From Gammaproteobacteria bacterium RIFOXYD12_FULL_61_37 (GTDB taxonomy: Bacteria; Pseudomonadota; Gammaproteobacteria; Chromatiales; Chromatiaceae), in NCBI GenBank assembly GCA_001801995.1, contig MGZB01000025.1, forward strand, positions 62,001 to 126,000: DNA of 64,000 nucleotides, written 5' to 3'. Shown piece after piece: positions 38,255 through 43,998 of the stretch. The notes beneath the pieces were generated by a model, which saw only the letters and a program-made list of their open reading frames with translations, was not told the origin of the DNA and did not search any database. Each line of letters begins with the position of its first letter. The first letter of the stretch is position 1. The position numbers were made by a program, and so were the translations under genes.

Positions 38255-39526
38255 TCAATGCACCGCGCAGGAGAAACAGGGATCGTAGTTACGTATCACA
38301 TGCCCGGCGCGGCGGCACAGTTCTGCTGCATCCTTGTCCAGGCCGAAGCGTTCCAGACTTAGGCGAATATCCTCTTCCATGCGCGCTTGGTTTTGGCTGG
38401 TGGGGGAGATGATCCAGGCCGCATTTACCCGTCTCCGGAAGTCGATCTCATAGCAATGCCAAAGCAGGCCCTGCGGCGACTCGATTGTGCCGTAGGATAT
38501 TCCCTCCGCGTGCGGGACATCGACAAAGGACGTGGCGGGGCTCTCGTACTCATCCACCAGGCGCAATGCCTCCTGGACGGCCCATAGCAACTCGACGGCA
38601 CGGGCCAGGATGGAGTGAAACATGTTGTGGCTGGGAAAGGGGATTCCGGTCGCGCCCAAGGCCTGCCTGACCGGGGGCGGCAACTCCGGAAATCCCAGAT
38701 TGAGACGCGCCAGGGGACCCACCAGATAGGGGCGTTTATCCAGGCTGCTGTGCGGCGCTAGGGAACCGTCCACTTCGTATCGATCGAAATGGCGCATGAA
38801 TTCGCCGGCTTCGATATCCAGCCAGTCTCCGGATTGGATTCGCGTCCCGCCCATGGGATAACCGCTCGCGGGGCTCAGCGCGACGCTGGTGAAGGGATGT
38901 TCGTCCAGCGGAAAAGCCAGACTGGAGGCGAGCCAGGCCAGCAACGCCTCCGCCTCCGGCAGGGCATCGCGAAGCCGCTCGCGCATGGCCCGTACCTCGA
39001 CCGGACCGGGGGCACGGTGGAATCCGCCGATCCGCACCCCAACCGGATGGACCGCCCGGCCGCCGAGGAGGGTGATCAGGTCGCGCCCGAGGGATTGAAG
39101 ACGCCAGCCCCTGCCCAGCTCTTCCCGATAGCCTGCCATCAAGCCCAGCATATGGCCGCAACCCAGGAAGTCGGGCAAGGCCATCAGGTGAATATGGCGG
39201 CTGTGGCTCTGAATCCACTCCCCACACAGCATCAGCCGCCGCATCGCCTGGACCCAGGGGCCAGGGTCCAGGCCGGCGAGGCGTTCGAAGGCCTGGGCCG
39301 CGCATAATTGGTGGGCCACGGGGGAATGTCCGCCGATACGGGGCGCCATCTCCACCACCTGCTCCCGGTCGTGACCCTCCATGAGCTTTTCGAAGAAACG
39401 CGGCGGTCCGGGGATATTCAAGACCGGCCTCGACACCTCGCCTTCCCGGATCTCAAGCCGCAGACCGCAACGGCCCTCCACCCGCGTCAGCAATGGAATC
39501 TCGACAACGATATCCCTCCCGCTCAT
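38255..39526 (-). CDS. hydA: Group 3b-like [NiFe] hydrogenase large subunit lacking the N-terminal CxxC
   Basis: The 423-residue protein matches the alpha subunit of cytosolic group 3b (sulfhydrogenase-type) enzymes: LTRVEGRCGLRLEI, PPRFFEKLMEGHD and the C-terminal NYDPCFSCAVH. The usual N-terminal Ni motif RICGICPVA is here RIGGHSPVA (residues 63-71), so both cysteines are replaced (G65, S68). C417 and C420 remain. The chain ends right after the last histidine, so the usual C-terminal peptide removed by a maturation protease is missing. The ATG overlaps the small-subunit stop by 4 bp. A normal NiFe site seems unlikely; an altered or absent metal centre is possible. Confidence 0.88.
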   Translation of the reverse strand: MSGRDIVVEIPLLTRVEGRCGLRLEIREGEVSRPVLNIPGPPRFFEKLMEGHDREQVVEMAPRIGGHSPVAHQLCAAQAFERLAGLDPGPWVQAMRRLMLCGEWIQSHSRHIHLMALPDFLGCGHMLGLMAGYREELGRGWRLQSLGRDLITLLGGRAVHPVGVRIGGFHRAPGPVEVRAMRERLRDALPEAEALLAWLASSLAFPLDEHPFTSVALSPASGYPMGGTRIQSGDWLDIEAGEFMRHFDRYEVDGSLAPHSSLDKRPYLVGPLARLNLGFPELPPPVRQALGATGIPFPSHNMFHSILARAVELLWAVQEALRLVDEYESPATSFVDVPHAEGISYGTIESPQGLLWHCYEIDFRRRVNAAWIISPTSQNQARMEEDIRLSLERFGLDKDAAELCRRAGHVIRNYDPCFSCAVH

Positions 39527-40296
39527 CGGCCCTCCAACTTGTCCGCAGCCAGGGAGTAAGGTTTCGCGTTGCCCTGGATGAAGCGAAACCTGCGCGCCGT
39601 TTCGGCCTCGGACAGCCCCAACGTTTTGAACCGCCGGGCCAGGGCCAGATGATTTACCTGTTCGGCGGGGCCGGAGCAGGCATGACAAGCCCGGCCAAAA
39701 GCGGGGCAGAGGGCGCCGCAACCGGCTTGGGCAACCGGCCCCATGCAGGGCTCACCCTTGGCCACCAGGGTACAAACCGACTGCTTCTGCTTGCATTCCA
39801 TACAGAGGGGACGAGTGTCGTTTTTCGGCCTTACGCCGGACAACAGATCACGCAGCAGGGTCCAAACCTGCTGCCCGCTGACGGGGCAGCCCCAGAGCGT
39901 CCAATCGACCTTGACCTGGTCCGCGATGGGGGCCGTGGCCGCCGATAGATCGATGCCATCCGGCCGTTCGTAGAGTTCGCCGGCCCAAGCCTTGCCGTCG
40001 AACCGGTTGCGCAGGGACTGCAAACCGCCCGAGGCGGCGCAGGCGCCGAGGGAGACCAGAAAACCGCACTTTGCCCGCACCCGCTGGAGCCGTTCCCGTT
40101 CCGGCGCGGTGGAGATACTGCCCTCGACCAGGGCCACATCCACCTCGGCATCCTCATCCAGGAAACCGGCGGCGGCGAAGTGGACGATCTCGAATCCCTG
40201 GGACAGCTCGACCAGCCGCTCGCCCGGATCGAGCAAGGCCAACTGGCAACCGCCGCAGGAGCTGAATTGATGAACAGCGATCTTGGGTTTCGTCAT
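39523..40296 (-). CDS. hydD: Group 3b-like hydrogenase small subunit (delta)
   Basis: The 257-residue NuoB/HydD-type subunit has proximal [4Fe-4S] ligands in FSSCGGCQLAL, SLGACAASGG and WGCPVSGQQ. It also has the extra cysteine-rich segment typical of 3b enzymes (PLCMECKQKQSVC, GEPCMGPVAQAGCGALCP, RACHACSGP) for two more clusters. All expected ligands appear present, in contrast to the large subunit. It relays electrons between the large subunit and HydG. It overlaps hydA by 4 bp and is separated from hydG by a gene on the other strand. Confidence 0.92.
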   Translation of the reverse strand: MTKPKIAVHQFSSCGGCQLALLDPGERLVELSQGFEIVHFAAAGFLDEDAEVDVALVEGSISTAPERERLQRVRAKCGFLVSLGACAASGGLQSLRNRFDGKAWAGELYERPDGIDLSAATAPIADQVKVDWTLWGCPVSGQQVWTLLRDLLSGVRPKNDTRPLCMECKQKQSVCTLVAKGEPCMGPVAQAGCGALCPAFGRACHACSGPAEQVNHLALARRFKTLGLSEAETARRFRFIQGNAKPYSLAADKLEGR

Positions 40297-40429
40297 TTTG
40301 ATTTCTGCCGTTCGCTAGAGTATGGACGCCAGCAGACGCAAAGCAACCTCGGGCATCCCAACCTTAGGCTTGCCCGTGCATCGGCCTTTTCTGGGATAAT
40401 GGGAAACCCCAGCCCTGGAAAACCAATGG

Positions 40430-40831
40430 ATGAAAAAGCAGTTACTTCTCATTTTACTGATCGCATTTATCAGTCTTGCCCATGCGGAAGACTATGATTT
40501 TCTCGCCCCCAAGAACCCTGACTTCTCCCGTCTCATCGTCGGCGACTGGGAGGCCCAGTCGGACAATCTCATCGCCAGGGTGATCATCAACGGGTCAGGG
40601 AATTTTTCCGGGGTACTGGGCGAGAGCGGCAAGGTCTCCTGGGTCTACAGCGGAACCTGGAAAATCGAGGGGAAGGAATTGGTCTGGCACTACGACAACT
40701 CTTTCCAGGAACTGCCCGAACACCTGAGAAACAAGGCGGAAAGGAACAAAATCATGTCCCTCGACGATGAGAAGCTCATCCTGCAAGAGACCGATGGCAG
40801 GGTCACCCGCTACCACAGACGAAAGAAATAG
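40430..40831 (+). CDS. Small secreted protein of unknown function
   Basis: The 133-residue protein has a clear signal peptide (KKQLLLILLIAFISLAHA, cleavage before EDY). The mature part predicts as beta-rich: FSRLIVGDWEAQSD, GSGNFSGVLGESG, VYSGTWKIEGKELVWHYD and a basic end (RYHRRKK). Short proteins of this lipocalin-like DUF type are common and uncharacterised. It lies on the opposite strand inside the hydrogenase-like cluster, 8 bp from the hydG stop (convergent), dividing hydB-hydG from hydD-hydA. Confidence 0.75.
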   Translation: MKKQLLLILLIAFISLAHAEDYDFLAPKNPDFSRLIVGDWEAQSDNLIARVIINGSGNFSGVLGESGKVSWVYSGTWKIEGKELVWHYDNSFQELPEHLRNKAERNKIMSLDDEKLILQETDGRVTRYHRRKK

Positions 40832-40839
40832 GACAAAGG

Positions 40840-41670
40840 TCAAAATCCCCTGATGCCGAAGAAATCGGCGATCTCCGGGTAGCAGAACACGGGTCCGTCC
40901 TTGCAGACGAAGAGGGGGCCGATCTGGCAGTGCCCGCAGAGGCCATTGCCGCAAGGCATGTTGCGTTCCAGGCCCAGCCAGATATCCCTGTCGCCGAGAC
41001 CCAATTCGCGCAGTTGAGCAATGGCGTCCATCAGCATCAGTTCCGGTCCGCTCAGCAGGGCGATGCTGCGCCCCGGTTCCAGCATCAAACGCGAAAAAAA
41101 CTCGACCACGGGACCTTCCTGGAAGCGCGCGCCCTCCTGGGACAGATCCGCCGCCAGCAAGACCTGGGTATCGGGTTGCGCCGCCCAGGCGTCGTAGCGT
41201 TCCCGCCAGATGAGATCGTGGGCATGGCACACCCCTTGCAGGAGCGTAATCCGGCCATACCGATCCCGGCGGCGCATGACGTAATTGATCAGGGAGACGG
41301 CGGGGGCGCAGCCCAGCCCGCCGGTGACTATGATCAGGTCTTTGCCTTCCGCCTCCGCCAGGGGCCAGCCACGGCCGAAAGGACCACGGATGCCCAGGCG
41401 GTCCCCTGCCATCAGGGAGAGCAGCCCCCCGGTCACCCGTCCGGCGGCGCGAATGCTGTGATCGAAGCAATGTGTATCCTCCGGGTCGGAAACGATGGAG
41501 ATCGGGATCTCTCCCACGCCATGCAGATACAGCATGTTGAACTGACCGGGCTGAAACTCGAACGCCCTGCGGTGATCCTCATCCACATATTCAAGCCGCA
41601 GGGTGAAAATATCCGGTGCTTCCATCAGGCGCTCGACGACGACCGCCTCCCTCGGGACGGAGCGGCTCAT
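40840..41670 (-). CDS. hydG: Hydrogenase-like FAD/NAD(P)-binding subunit (gamma)
   Basis: The 276-residue ferredoxin-NADP reductase-like subunit has QPGQFNMLYLHGVGE (flavin), DRLGIRGPFGRGW, IIVTGGLGCAPAVSLI (NAD(P)), and a C-terminal [2Fe-2S] site CGNGLCGHC with further cysteines in VCKDGPVFC. It exchanges electrons with NAD(P)H in group 3b complexes and is related to PyrK and sulfide dehydrogenase subunits. ATG 41670 overlaps the hydB stop by 4 bp. Confidence 0.92.
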   Translation of the reverse strand: MSRSVPREAVVVERLMEAPDIFTLRLEYVDEDHRRAFEFQPGQFNMLYLHGVGEIPISIVSDPEDTHCFDHSIRAAGRVTGGLLSLMAGDRLGIRGPFGRGWPLAEAEGKDLIIVTGGLGCAPAVSLINYVMRRRDRYGRITLLQGVCHAHDLIWRERYDAWAAQPDTQVLLAADLSQEGARFQEGPVVEFFSRLMLEPGRSIALLSGPELMLMDAIAQLRELGLGDRDIWLGLERNMPCGNGLCGHCQIGPLFVCKDGPVFCYPEIADFFGIRGF

Positions 41671-42770
41671 AGACGGCCCTCCGCGATGCTTTTCAAGGCT
41701 TCGATGAGATCGATCCCGGCCGGGCACCAGGCGATGCACCGGCCGCAGCCGACGCAACCGCTACGTCCGAACTGTGCCTGCCAGCCGGCCAGCTTATGGG
41801 TCAGCCATTGACGGTAGCGCAGTTTGATCTCGCCGCGCACCGCCCGCCCGTGCAGAAGGCTGTGGCCCTCGTTGAAACAGGAATCCCAGCGCCGCACCTG
41901 AGGGGACTCGTGACCATCCAGGGCCGGTTCGCTGACAGGGTCGTGGCAAAAGCAGGTGGGACAGACTGCCGTGCAGTTGCCGCAAGAGAGGCAGCGTTCG
42001 GCCAATCTGCTCCAGGCAGGATGATCTAGGGAATCGAAGAGTATCCGGCCAGGCTCCGGCCCCGGCAGTCTCCTCGTCTGGCCCAGGCTGGCGGCCTCCA
42101 GGGCCTGGTTGGCCCGCTCCAGCTGGGTTTCGCTTGCCTCCGGCAGAGTCAGGGATGCCAGGATTTCTTCACCGGTGTCACCGGAACTCCACAGCAGGAA
42201 GCCCTCGTCCAGCTCGGTCATGCCGATATGGTAGCCGCCGGTCAGTGCCGGGCCGTCCCCGGTGGAGCGGCAGAAACAGGTGGCCGCCGGATGATGGCAG
42301 TCCACTCCCAGCAATAGAAGCCCGCCGCGCCGTGCCTGGTAAGGGGCATCCCCGGCGAAATGGCGGTCCAGCATGGCCAGGGCGGCCAGATCGCAGGCCT
42401 TGACGCCGATCACCGCCAGACTGGGTGCAGGGGGCTCGACGGCATTGAATCTGAGCCCGCCATCGGGGTCACGGAGCGCGCGCCAGAGGACCTCTTCCGG
42501 CGCGAAGCTGAGGGGCTTCAATGCCTGGGGACCCGAGGCCCAGGCGAAGCAGCGGGGGCTCCCGGTCCGGTGCAGCCGGTATTCTCCCGGCGATTGCCGG
42601 TCACTCCAGCCGTGCGGCAGTTCAACGCTGGTGTCGAGCCGGTCATAGACGATGGCTCCCTCTCGGACCTGGGGGCCGATGCAGACATGGCCGCTCCCCC
42701 GCAAGGCGTCGAGGAGACGCTCCAGTTCCTCCCTGAGCAGAAAGAAGGGACGGCGGTGGGGGCTAGGCAT
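41667..42770 (-). CDS. hydB: Hydrogenase-like [4Fe-4S] subunit (beta)
   Basis: The 367-residue subunit has two C-terminal ferredoxin motifs (CLSCGNCTAVCPTCFC and CVGCGRCIAWCPAGID). An N-terminal domain includes VIGVKACDLAALAMLD and DCHHPAATCFC, typical of the sulfhydrogenase beta subunit and of anaerobic sulfite reductase A. It carries electrons between HydG and HydD. It is the first gene of the module, and an FNR-like palindrome lies about 90 bp upstream. Confidence 0.92.
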   Translation of the reverse strand: MPSPHRRPFFLLREELERLLDALRGSGHVCIGPQVREGAIVYDRLDTSVELPHGWSDRQSPGEYRLHRTGSPRCFAWASGPQALKPLSFAPEEVLWRALRDPDGGLRFNAVEPPAPSLAVIGVKACDLAALAMLDRHFAGDAPYQARRGGLLLLGVDCHHPAATCFCRSTGDGPALTGGYHIGMTELDEGFLLWSSGDTGEEILASLTLPEASETQLERANQALEAASLGQTRRLPGPEPGRILFDSLDHPAWSRLAERCLSCGNCTAVCPTCFCHDPVSEPALDGHESPQVRRWDSCFNEGHSLLHGRAVRGEIKLRYRQWLTHKLAGWQAQFGRSGCVGCGRCIAWCPAGIDLIEALKSIAEGRL

Positions 42771-42872: not shown

Positions 42873-42996
42873 GCAAGCAGCTTCTACGCTTGCGCCTTTG
42901 ACGCTATCGACACATCCTCTCCCATGCGAATCAATTGCCCGGCACCGTGAACAACCGTGCGCCCACCGCGACCCACATCGATCAGGGAGACCCCTT

Positions 42997-43998
42997 ATGG
43001 ATTTGACGACGAAATGGCTCGGACTTGAGCTGAAAAACCCCTTCGTGCCATCGGCCTCGCCGCTGACCAAGAGTCTGGGCATGGCGAAACAACTGGAGGA
43101 CGCGGGAGCCGCCGCCCTGGTCATGCACTCCCTGTACGAGGAGGTGGTGGTGGCCTTCGACGAAGGCGTGAGCCGCTTCGCCCATCAGGGCTGCGGCCAT
43201 GCGGGGGCGCGGCAGGATCAGAATTTCCCTTGCGAACTGGACTGTTACCTGGAACAGCTCTCCTCCCTCAAGTCGAGCCTGGGGATTCCCGTGGTCGCCA
43301 GTCTCAACGGCGTCACCCCCGGCGGTTGGGTCGAACATGCCAGGGAGTTGCAGGACGCGGGCGCGGATGCCCTGGAGCTGAATGTCTACCATGTGGCGGC
43401 CGATCCCGAGGAATCCGGCTTCGAGGTGGAGGAGCGCTATCTCAACCTGCTGGAACTCCTGGAAGACCAGATCAACATCCCCATCAACATGAAGCTCGGC
43501 CCCTTCTTCAGCTCGCCGGCCCATCTGATCACCCTGCTGGAACCGGCGGGCGCGGCCGGGGTATCCCTCTTCAACCGCTTCTACCAGCCGGATATCAACA
43601 TCGAGACCCTGCGGCTGATCCCCACGCTGCACCCCTCGACCTCGACCGAGACGCTACTGGCCGTACGCTGGATCGCAATCCTTTATGGGCGTTCGAAACT
43701 CTCCCTGGGCGCCACCGGCGGGGTACACAGGGCGGAGGACGTGATCAAGCTGCTGCTGGCCGGGGCCGATGTGGTGCATCTCTGTTCCTCGCTCTTGCAG
43801 CACGGACCGAAACACCTGGGCGTCCTGATACAAGGTCTGGAGCAGTGGATGGAGCGGCAGGGATTCGGGTCGATCACCGAGGTCCGGGGCCGCATGAGCC
43901 AGCTCAACGTTGCCGACCCTAGTGAACTCGCCCGCGCCAACTATGTGATGATGTTGGATGGCTACTCGCCGGATGCGGCAGGCGGGCCTGGTATGTAG
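42997..43998 (+). CDS. Dihydroorotate dehydrogenase-like flavoprotein (class 1B-like)
   Basis: The 333-residue FMN barrel begins with the segments LGLELKNPFVPSASPLTKS and LVMHSLYEEVV. It also has VVASLNGVTPGGWVEHA, ALELNVYH, NINMKLGPF-like PINMKLGPFF, and GATGGVHRAEDVIKLLLAGA. This branch of DHOD-like proteins is often found near ferredoxin-linked oxidoreductases and is not the PyrD of pyrimidine synthesis. ATG 42997 follows CAGGGAGA. It is divergent from the hydrogenase-like operon, sharing an FNR-like site; the electron partner is unknown. Confidence 0.85.
   Translation: MDLTTKWLGLELKNPFVPSASPLTKSLGMAKQLEDAGAAALVMHSLYEEVVVAFDEGVSRFAHQGCGHAGARQDQNFPCELDCYLEQLSSLKSSLGIPVVASLNGVTPGGWVEHARELQDAGADALELNVYHVAADPEESGFEVEERYLNLLELLEDQINIPINMKLGPFFSSPAHLITLLEPAGAAGVSLFNRFYQPDINIETLRLIPTLHPSTSTETLLAVRWIAILYGRSKLSLGATGGVHRAEDVIKLLLAGADVVHLCSSLLQHGPKHLGVLIQGLEQWMERQGFGSITEVRGRMSQLNVADPSELARANYVMMLDGYSPDAAGGPGM

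Follow-up and report, generated by a model that had tools for sequence, protein, structure and literature searches.

The window analyzed here, a stretch of 64,000 nucleotides from Gammaproteobacteria bacterium RIFOXYD12_FULL_61_37 (assembly GCA_001801995.1, contig MGZB01000025.1, positions 62,001 to 126,000), codes on its minus strand, at positions 38255 to 42770, for a complete HydB-HydG-HydD-HydA set of the group 3b [NiFe] hydrogenase type (Table 1). We propose that this set is probably a group 3b hydrogenase that was stripped of its Ni-Fe site in one genus and retained as a working NAD(P)H-linked iron-sulfur (Fe-S)/flavin oxidoreductase. The four subunits had been named in a first, sequence-only reading of this DNA, and profile searches bear this out: HydA, HydD, HydG, and HydB are matched by the NCBIfam models for the alpha, delta, gamma, and beta subunits of sulfhydrogenase, respectively, with all four scores far below the curated equivalog cutoffs (207 bits versus 880 for HydA), and the group 3b label is based on these profiles and on gene order. 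The top PDB sequence matches of HydA in phmmer searches, covering query residues 8/9 to 423, are the alpha subunits of cytosolic hydrogenase/sulfhydrogenase 1 (5yxy, 9e15, and 9nez). In its four subunits, gene order, and Fe-S and NAD(P) motifs, the set, which clearly descends from enzymes of the group 3b type, is like the known ones, such as HydBGDA of Pyrococcus furiosus sulfhydrogenase I (SHI) and Hyd3b of tubeworm symbionts, but it differs from them in the HydA substitutions C65G, C68S, R352Q/C, and E19R, in the missing C-terminal extension, and in the lack of an adjacent gene for a HycI-type protease.

The loss of the Ni-Fe site is read from HydA. Of the features of a functional group 3b enzyme, the four-subunit set with its Fe-S and NAD(P)/flavin motifs is present, as is the second cysteine pair of the large subunit in its DPCxxCxxH (L2) motif, whereas both cysteines of the L1 motif are gone, with RIGGHS in the window and RIGGLS in the sister species described below in place of RICGIC. 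The protein ends in ...NYDPCFSCAVH, with a TGA directly next, and thus has no C-terminal extension, and a 3b-adjacent HycI-type endopeptidase gene is missing from the host genome; the altered L1 at residues 63 to 68 and the stop after the final histidine had both been reported from the sequence, and the codons agree. The arginine of the APRG motif, which we take to be the pendant arginine over the Ni-Fe center, is likewise missing, with glutamine in the window and cysteine in the sister species. The pendant arginine is a strictly conserved residue, and its role is described in the partial text of PMC10430524. Among 88 columns invariant in 55 intact clade members, 68 are retained in both species of the genus and 20 are altered in at least one of them (two being tail positions); the changes common to both include E19R, C65G, C68S, Y72H, R352Q/C, and I418F. 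The usual tail in the clade has nine residues (107 of 151 open reading frames [ORFs] with a readable L2). With two cysteines, the pendant arginine, the C-terminal tail, and the neighboring protease gene all lost, the HydA site very probably cannot hold a normal Ni-Fe(CN)2CO center. The absent tail is by itself not diagnostic of lost activity, since some active hydrogenases, e.g., the regulatory hydrogenases, have none.

The same losses are found in the sole other genome of this genus that we recovered, a gammaproteobacterial metagenome-assembled genome (MAG) (G001, JAHJDE010000122.1; loci L007/L033/L124), whose HydA is 74% identical to that of the window and reads RIGGLS, SPCG, and DPCFSCAVH-stop. 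The two loci have in common the RIGGxS motif, the lost arginine, the missing tail and adjacent protease, and a gene inserted on the opposite strand. The nearest intact relatives, at 51 to 55% HydA identity, come from Thiodiazotropha and vestimentiferan (tubeworm) symbionts and possess RICGIC, APRG or its equivalent, and tails such as FLKLNVNRG. The sequence-only reading would have been undone by close relatives having RICGIC; such relatives exist outside the genus, and within it the motif is RIGGLS.

To place these losses, HydA was searched against 38 relatives (E ≤ 1e-3, 30 loci kept), in one scan of genome contigs (25 loci), and against samples of the order (195 genomes, E ≤ 1e-40), the class (369 genomes, E ≤ 1e-30), and the phylum (398 genomes, E ≤ 1e-30), the genomes being nearest kin or drawn evenly from the larger group and every listed order, class, or phylum match being read as a locus. 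From 207 distinct ORFs collected, 12 partial ones were dropped first, leaving 195 full-length homologues; this set, defined by E ≤ 1e-15 to the window HydA, extends to further hydrogenase classes, 3d among them. Of the 195, 193 have the two L1 cysteines as well as the arginine, and the two exceptions are the window and the sister species, so that a homologue search for the L1 loss combined with a missing extension, as the sequence-only reading had proposed, returns only the latter. Canonical in every feature are 190 homologues, while three have the L1 cysteines and arginine with a C terminus cut off or out of frame. No further independent loss of the L1 cysteines or arginine was found among the 195, and within the genomes sampled the active-site loss appears restricted to a single genus. 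Three side observations came out of this survey. Near its 3' end, hydA appears out of frame in L106 (G062:C1:40500-49500) and L217 (G513:C184:2100-5500); in G062, which is assembled as one contig, a different frame codes for the last 51 residues. The Lamellibrachia barhami symbiont (G175; L015/L070/L115) has a second, partial hydA (query residues 213/214 to 423) about 0.7 kb downstream of the full copy. Finally, one of the partial ORFs dropped, L031 3047-4252 of an Ectothiorhodospiraceae MAG (JAJUGG010000038.1), is a HydA-like ORF standing alone, without any of the four cysteines or other motifs; no hydB, hydG, or hydD is recognizable by eye alongside it, and its best class-sample matches are HydA loci that were canonical in the 195-homologue survey. 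It has the look of a single subunit that has decayed or been co-opted, and simple decay would seem to account for it.

The maturation gene was compared across the same loci. Outside the genus, an ORF of 138 to 171 amino acids (aa), of one family, follows hydA in 9 of the 11 copies of the locus that were compared, corresponding to 7 of 9 independent loci (the exceptions are L088 and L102), and the copy tested is HycI (PF01750, 4e-8). No such ORF follows hydA in the window or in the sister locus L124. PF01750 searches found the 3b-adjacent copy in all three comparison genomes (G008, G066, and G026) and in neither the host genome of the window (G000) nor G001; each of the latter has one protease match, near the hydrogenase on contig C53 in G000 and on a contig also holding a hydrogenase match in G001. 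HypD is present in all five genomes, so that the other hydrogenases are probably still served by general cofactor assembly. The hyp genes and endopeptidase that had been suggested for inspection are thus represented in the host by HypD and by the C53-linked protease, with the 3b-adjacent copy missing. The host genome (3.47 Mb) has three further places matching PF00374, to which we give labels of our own from motif and length: group 1-like on C53, 3d-like on C16, and a short, probably NuoD-like one on C19. As a separate observation, hydA runs on into a HycI-type protease domain (the C-terminal 160 to 201 aa) in 12 of the 151 clade ORFs with a readable L2 (L154, L196, L202, L100, L192, L162, L184, L153, L170, L176, L159, and L098), as detected with a profile made from stand-alone protease copies (11 at E ≤ 1e-13 and L098 at 4e-4). 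Such a fusion would join a hydrogenase to its own processing enzyme, which would need to cut itself or its neighbor.

Retention of a working complex is suggested by the patterns of substitution. In both species, the four genes have open frames without stops, and the ratio of nonsynonymous to synonymous rates (dN/dS) between them, necessarily rough at a dS of 0.68 to 0.86 and with NG86, is 0.217 for HydA (bootstrap 5 to 95%, 0.163 to 0.262), 0.264 for HydD, 0.145 for HydG, and 0.212 for HydB, with bootstrap maxima of 0.23 to 0.37 across the four genes; YN00 gives 0.11 to 0.20 for HydA, HydB, and HydD. As the losses are common to both species, the simplest reading is that purifying selection acted after them. 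The conserved cysteine columns are retained in both (HydB, 15/15; HydD, 12/12; HydG, four at the Fe-S domain), in agreement with the earlier statement that the electron-transfer subunits keep their Fe-S and flavin motifs; at fragment position 200 of HydG, a further cysteine is replaced by serine in the window. As a side observation on this subunit set, HydD of one intact locus (L126 6756-7580, G026) reads TSDDGCQ, having lost the first cysteine of the proximal-cluster CxxC, and is the sole exception among 37 intact loci; its HydA has RICGIC.

Change was unevenly distributed among the subunits. In a 39-locus tree of a single fixed topology, the stem of the genus takes up 6.6% of total tree length for HydA, 4.3% for HydD, 2.9% for HydB, and 1.3% for HydG, and the two tip branches take up 3.9, 3.8, 2.8, and 2.8%, respectively; by these stem shares, the large subunit and its partner HydD are estimated to have changed most. 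Sites invariant in the 37 intact loci are changed in both species at 14 of 95 positions in HydA, 5 of 46 in HydD, 2 of 53 in HydB, and 2 of 48 in HydG (P = 0.012 for HydA versus HydB plus HydG and 0.041 for HydA versus all three others). The changed HydA sites concentrate in the pocket motifs (9/32 versus 5/63 elsewhere; P = 0.014, only indicative because the pocket windows were picked around known motifs after the changes were seen). The altered site of the sequence-only reading therefore stands, and to it we add the replacement of Arg352 by Gln, the missing adjacent maturation protease, the opposite-strand gene between hydG and hydD, and the occurrence of the trait in two genomes under purifying selection; the new reaction, sulfur chemistry, or different metal that it went on to suggest is unproven.

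On the basis of these observations, we suggest that the ancestor of the genus lost the capacity for the Ni-Fe(CN)2CO center, and hence for H2 chemistry, while the complex was retained for redox work. HydA would be made in an already "mature" C-terminal form and could join HydD with no need for prior cofactor insertion. NAD(P)H would deliver electrons to the HydG flavin, from which they would pass through the HydG and HydB clusters to the HydD chain and its proximal cluster beside the emptied HydA pocket; the substrate turned over at that point, or at the HydBG end, would be something else than protons or H2. The sequence evidence singles out no substrate for the complex; sulfane sulfur (polysulfide or persulfide) is offered as a tentative guess, though the likeliest single one, because the host has dsr genes and the closest precedents, namely, MBS and the sulfur reduction discussed for group 3b, act on sulfane sulfur. 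Two dsrA copies exceed the family cutoff in the host (C11:37901-39112 and C17:47232-48377), as do two each in G001, G008, and G066, and the genus is probably one of sulfur bacteria. Hyd3b of the Riftia symbiont has been discussed in relation to sulfur metabolism (PMC11636981, partial text).

The closest likeness is to the membrane-bound sulfane sulfur reductase of P. furiosus (MBS/Mbx), a group 4-derived, hydrogenase-type complex that has lost two of the four cysteines and reduces polysulfide; its proximal cluster is underligated, with one ligand lost, and catalysis depends on this cluster, the two retained cysteines being dispensable (PMC7684303, partial text). Two of the four Ni-Fe cysteines are lost in both MBS and the window HydA, but by our own reading of the numbering in that partial text, MBS retains one of each pair (C85 and C385), whereas HydA has lost both in L1 and kept both in L2. 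MBS is also membrane bound and the window set of a soluble type; no membrane ion-pumping module lies within the four-gene set, to which this search extended. The proposed change resembles that from the membrane-bound hydrogenase (MBH) to MBS in group 4 but is separate from it. The Ehr-type complexes have the hydrogenase large-subunit fold without the four cysteines. Complex I uses the fold in the same way in Nqo4/NuoD (PMC7684303, partial text), and the Ehr-type complexes are mentioned without ligand detail in the partial text of PMC6349859; both are membrane coupled and ancient, whereas the present case is a one-genus loss in an NAD(P)H-linked set without membrane subunits. In the sulfur bacterium Thiomargarita, a [NiFe] large subunit gene, hupL (group 2c), is reported without the L1 motif, but that gene is described as incomplete, frameshifted, and interrupted by a miniature inverted-repeat transposable element (PMC4853749, partial text), whereas both species of the present genus have an intact hydA. 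The literature searched yielded no group 3 enzyme with this ligand loss, the sources being partial texts and mostly from outside the subscription journals.

Several points weigh against a working complex of the kind proposed. Only two genomes carry the Ni-Fe-less form, the dN/dS ratios are rough as stated, and PF01750 may miss diverged proteases. One intact pair has lower ratios (HydA, 0.079; HydG, 0.059; HydD, 0.046), albeit at a saturated dS of 1.9 to 4.8, and constraint may therefore be somewhat relaxed here. In HydA, identity between the two species is 87% in the pocket windows and 73% elsewhere; because three intact pairs of similar divergence reach 92 to 100% in the pocket, part of the constraint seems to have been relaxed, with three more-diverged intact pairs lying at 87 to 88%. 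The three-cysteine ligation of the MBS proximal [4Fe-4S] cluster is not matched by HydD, which has its CxxC and later conserved cysteines, all 12 of 12, and since these are retained, the MBS mechanism would not be directly transferable. Lastly, a scan of the locus for sigma-70-like promoters found none (0.6 expected by chance), and with the operon broken by the opposite-strand gene, the coexpression of hydDA is unproven.

Among other explanations, the one that fares best holds that HydB-HydG alone is a working diaphorase or sulfur reductase, coupling NAD(P)H oxidation to sulfur, ferredoxin, or another acceptor, with HydD-HydA only a structural base and no chemistry in the pocket. This explanation would accommodate three observations: the models for anaerobic sulfite reductase, AsrA and AsrB, also match HydB and HydG; the change on the stem is smallest in HydG and largest in HydA and HydD; and the inserted gene separates hydBG from hydDA. 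Against these stand the purifying selection on HydA and HydD after the loss (0.22 and 0.26), an L2 motif identical in both species, and the 12 conserved HydD cysteines, and we regard the idea as possible but rather doubtful.

The changed pocket could instead have been rebuilt, with HydA using its former cavity to bind some other metal or cluster via Cys417 and Cys420 together with the gained Cys75, Cys358, and His72. These gains are common to both species and lie at most seven residues from the lost L1 cysteine and the lost arginine, and the two cysteines and the histidine are almost or entirely confined to the genus within the clade (Table 1). His occurs at position 72 in distant hydrogenases, however, so that its gain may not be new, and the two cysteines retained by MBS are not catalytic (PMC7684303, partial text). 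An AlphaFold2 model of HydA (25 sequences; mean predicted local distance difference test [pLDDT] score, 60.8; predicted template modeling [pTM] score, 0.64) falls below a pLDDT of 50 at residues 61 to 68, 347 to 356, and 413 to 423 and cannot show these residues meeting; Foldseek places P. furiosus SHI large subunits first for it, at a TM score of about 0.5 and a root mean square deviation of about 11 Å, and for judging whether Cys75 or Cys358 would meet Cys417 and Cys420 in space the model is useless. A rebuilt site appears unlikely on this evidence; if true, it would be a new NAD(P)H-linked enzyme and an evolutionary intermediate with close intact sisters.

Slow decay, in which H2 function was lost and the complex is on its way to a pseudogene in a broken state inherited by both species, would fit the long HydA and HydD stem branches, the absence of the nifJ, protease, and kinase neighbors of several intact relatives, and a dN/dS above that of one intact pair (with saturated dS), and the solitary, motif-less HydA homologue L031 offers a parallel elsewhere. 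At a dS of 0.68 to 0.86, however, four frames remain open in both species, dN/dS stays far below 1 even at the bootstrap maxima of 0.23 to 0.37, and the conserved Fe-S cysteines are retained, making decay quite improbable. Sequencing or assembly error, or a strain-specific mutation, is ruled out for practical purposes by JAHJDE010000122.1 (L007/L124), where the same losses recur in a HydA that is 74% identical, and nothing was found in its favor.

The surroundings of the set differ from those in its intact relatives. In some of these (L008, L012/L127, and L019), nifJ is divergent from hydB, with a dihydroorotate dehydrogenase (DHOD)-like gene behind it in the tubeworm-symbiont locus L012/L127, and in some a Ser/Thr-kinase-HDOD gene follows the protease. 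The genus locus has no nifJ, nor does either genome have a close copy (best E, 4.0e-27 in G000 and 1.2e-37 in G001, versus E = 0 in G008 and G066). A genus-specific nifJ loss, or one tied to the Ni-Fe loss, is ruled out by G026, which has an intact HydA and is also without a nifJ match, and nifJ is missing from the available stretch of several intact loci (L011, L126, and L109). Despite the absence of nifJ, the DHOD-like gene still adjoins hydB in this genus; models for the electron-transfer subunit of DHOD match HydG, and a partnership of the two proteins is conceivable. The orphan gene between hydG and hydD occurs in 2 of 38 genomes, exactly the two of this genus, at a dN/dS of 0.17, and its product has no Pfam match above the cutoff.

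Table 1. Genes of the hydrogenase-type locus and residues of HydA in the window
Feature	Position	Strand	Description	Evidence or distribution
hydA-like	38255..39526	-	Homologue of the [NiFe] hydrogenase large subunit, group 3b type, 423 aa; two Ni-Fe ligands missing	NF040832, E 5.5e-61
L2 motif	38255..38284	-	DPCFSCAVH retained, stop codon directly after, no C-terminal extension	
Cys358	38453..38455	-	Gained, common to both species	C in 1/149 other clade members
Gln352	38471..38473	-	SPQG where APRG has Arg (SPCG in sister species)	R in 149/149 other clade members (at least 35% identity) and 193/193 other full-length homologues
Cys75	39302..39304	-	Gained, common to both species	C in 1/149 other clade members
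His72	39311..39313	-	Common to both species	Tyr in 149/149 other clade members; His in more distant hydrogenases
L1 motif	39323..39340	-	RIGGHS in place of RICGIC (C65G, C68S), residues 63-68	Codons CGT ATC GGC GGA CAT TCC
hydD-like	39523..40296	-	Small (delta) subunit, conserved cysteines retained	NCBIfam match, E 2.8e-44
Orphan gene	40430..40831	+	133 aa protein, signal-like start (by eye), inserted between hydG and hydD	
hydG-like	40840..41670	-	NAD(P)-binding gamma subunit with DHODB-type Fe-S domain	NCBIfam match, E 2.2e-45
hydB-like	41667..42770	-	Beta subunit with 4Fe-4S dicluster domain	NCBIfam match, E 6.5e-36
DHOD-like gene	42898..43998	+	Divergent from hydB; ORF, true start probably downstream of 42898 (by eye)	

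Profile-based annotation would, very probably in error, credit this genus with H2 metabolism through a group 3b enzyme. The change from hydrogenase to nonhydrogenase is otherwise known from ancient membrane-bound lines, leading from MBH to MBS to complex I, whose intermediates are very old. Here, it is limited to one genus as sampled, concerns an NAD(P)H-linked complex that has no membrane subunits, and comes with intact sisters at 51 to 55% identity and a record of selection in two species. Because it is so confined, with such sisters at hand, residue swaps between the genus and its intact relatives could retrace the steps by which a soluble-type hydrogenase may have become an enzyme of another kind.

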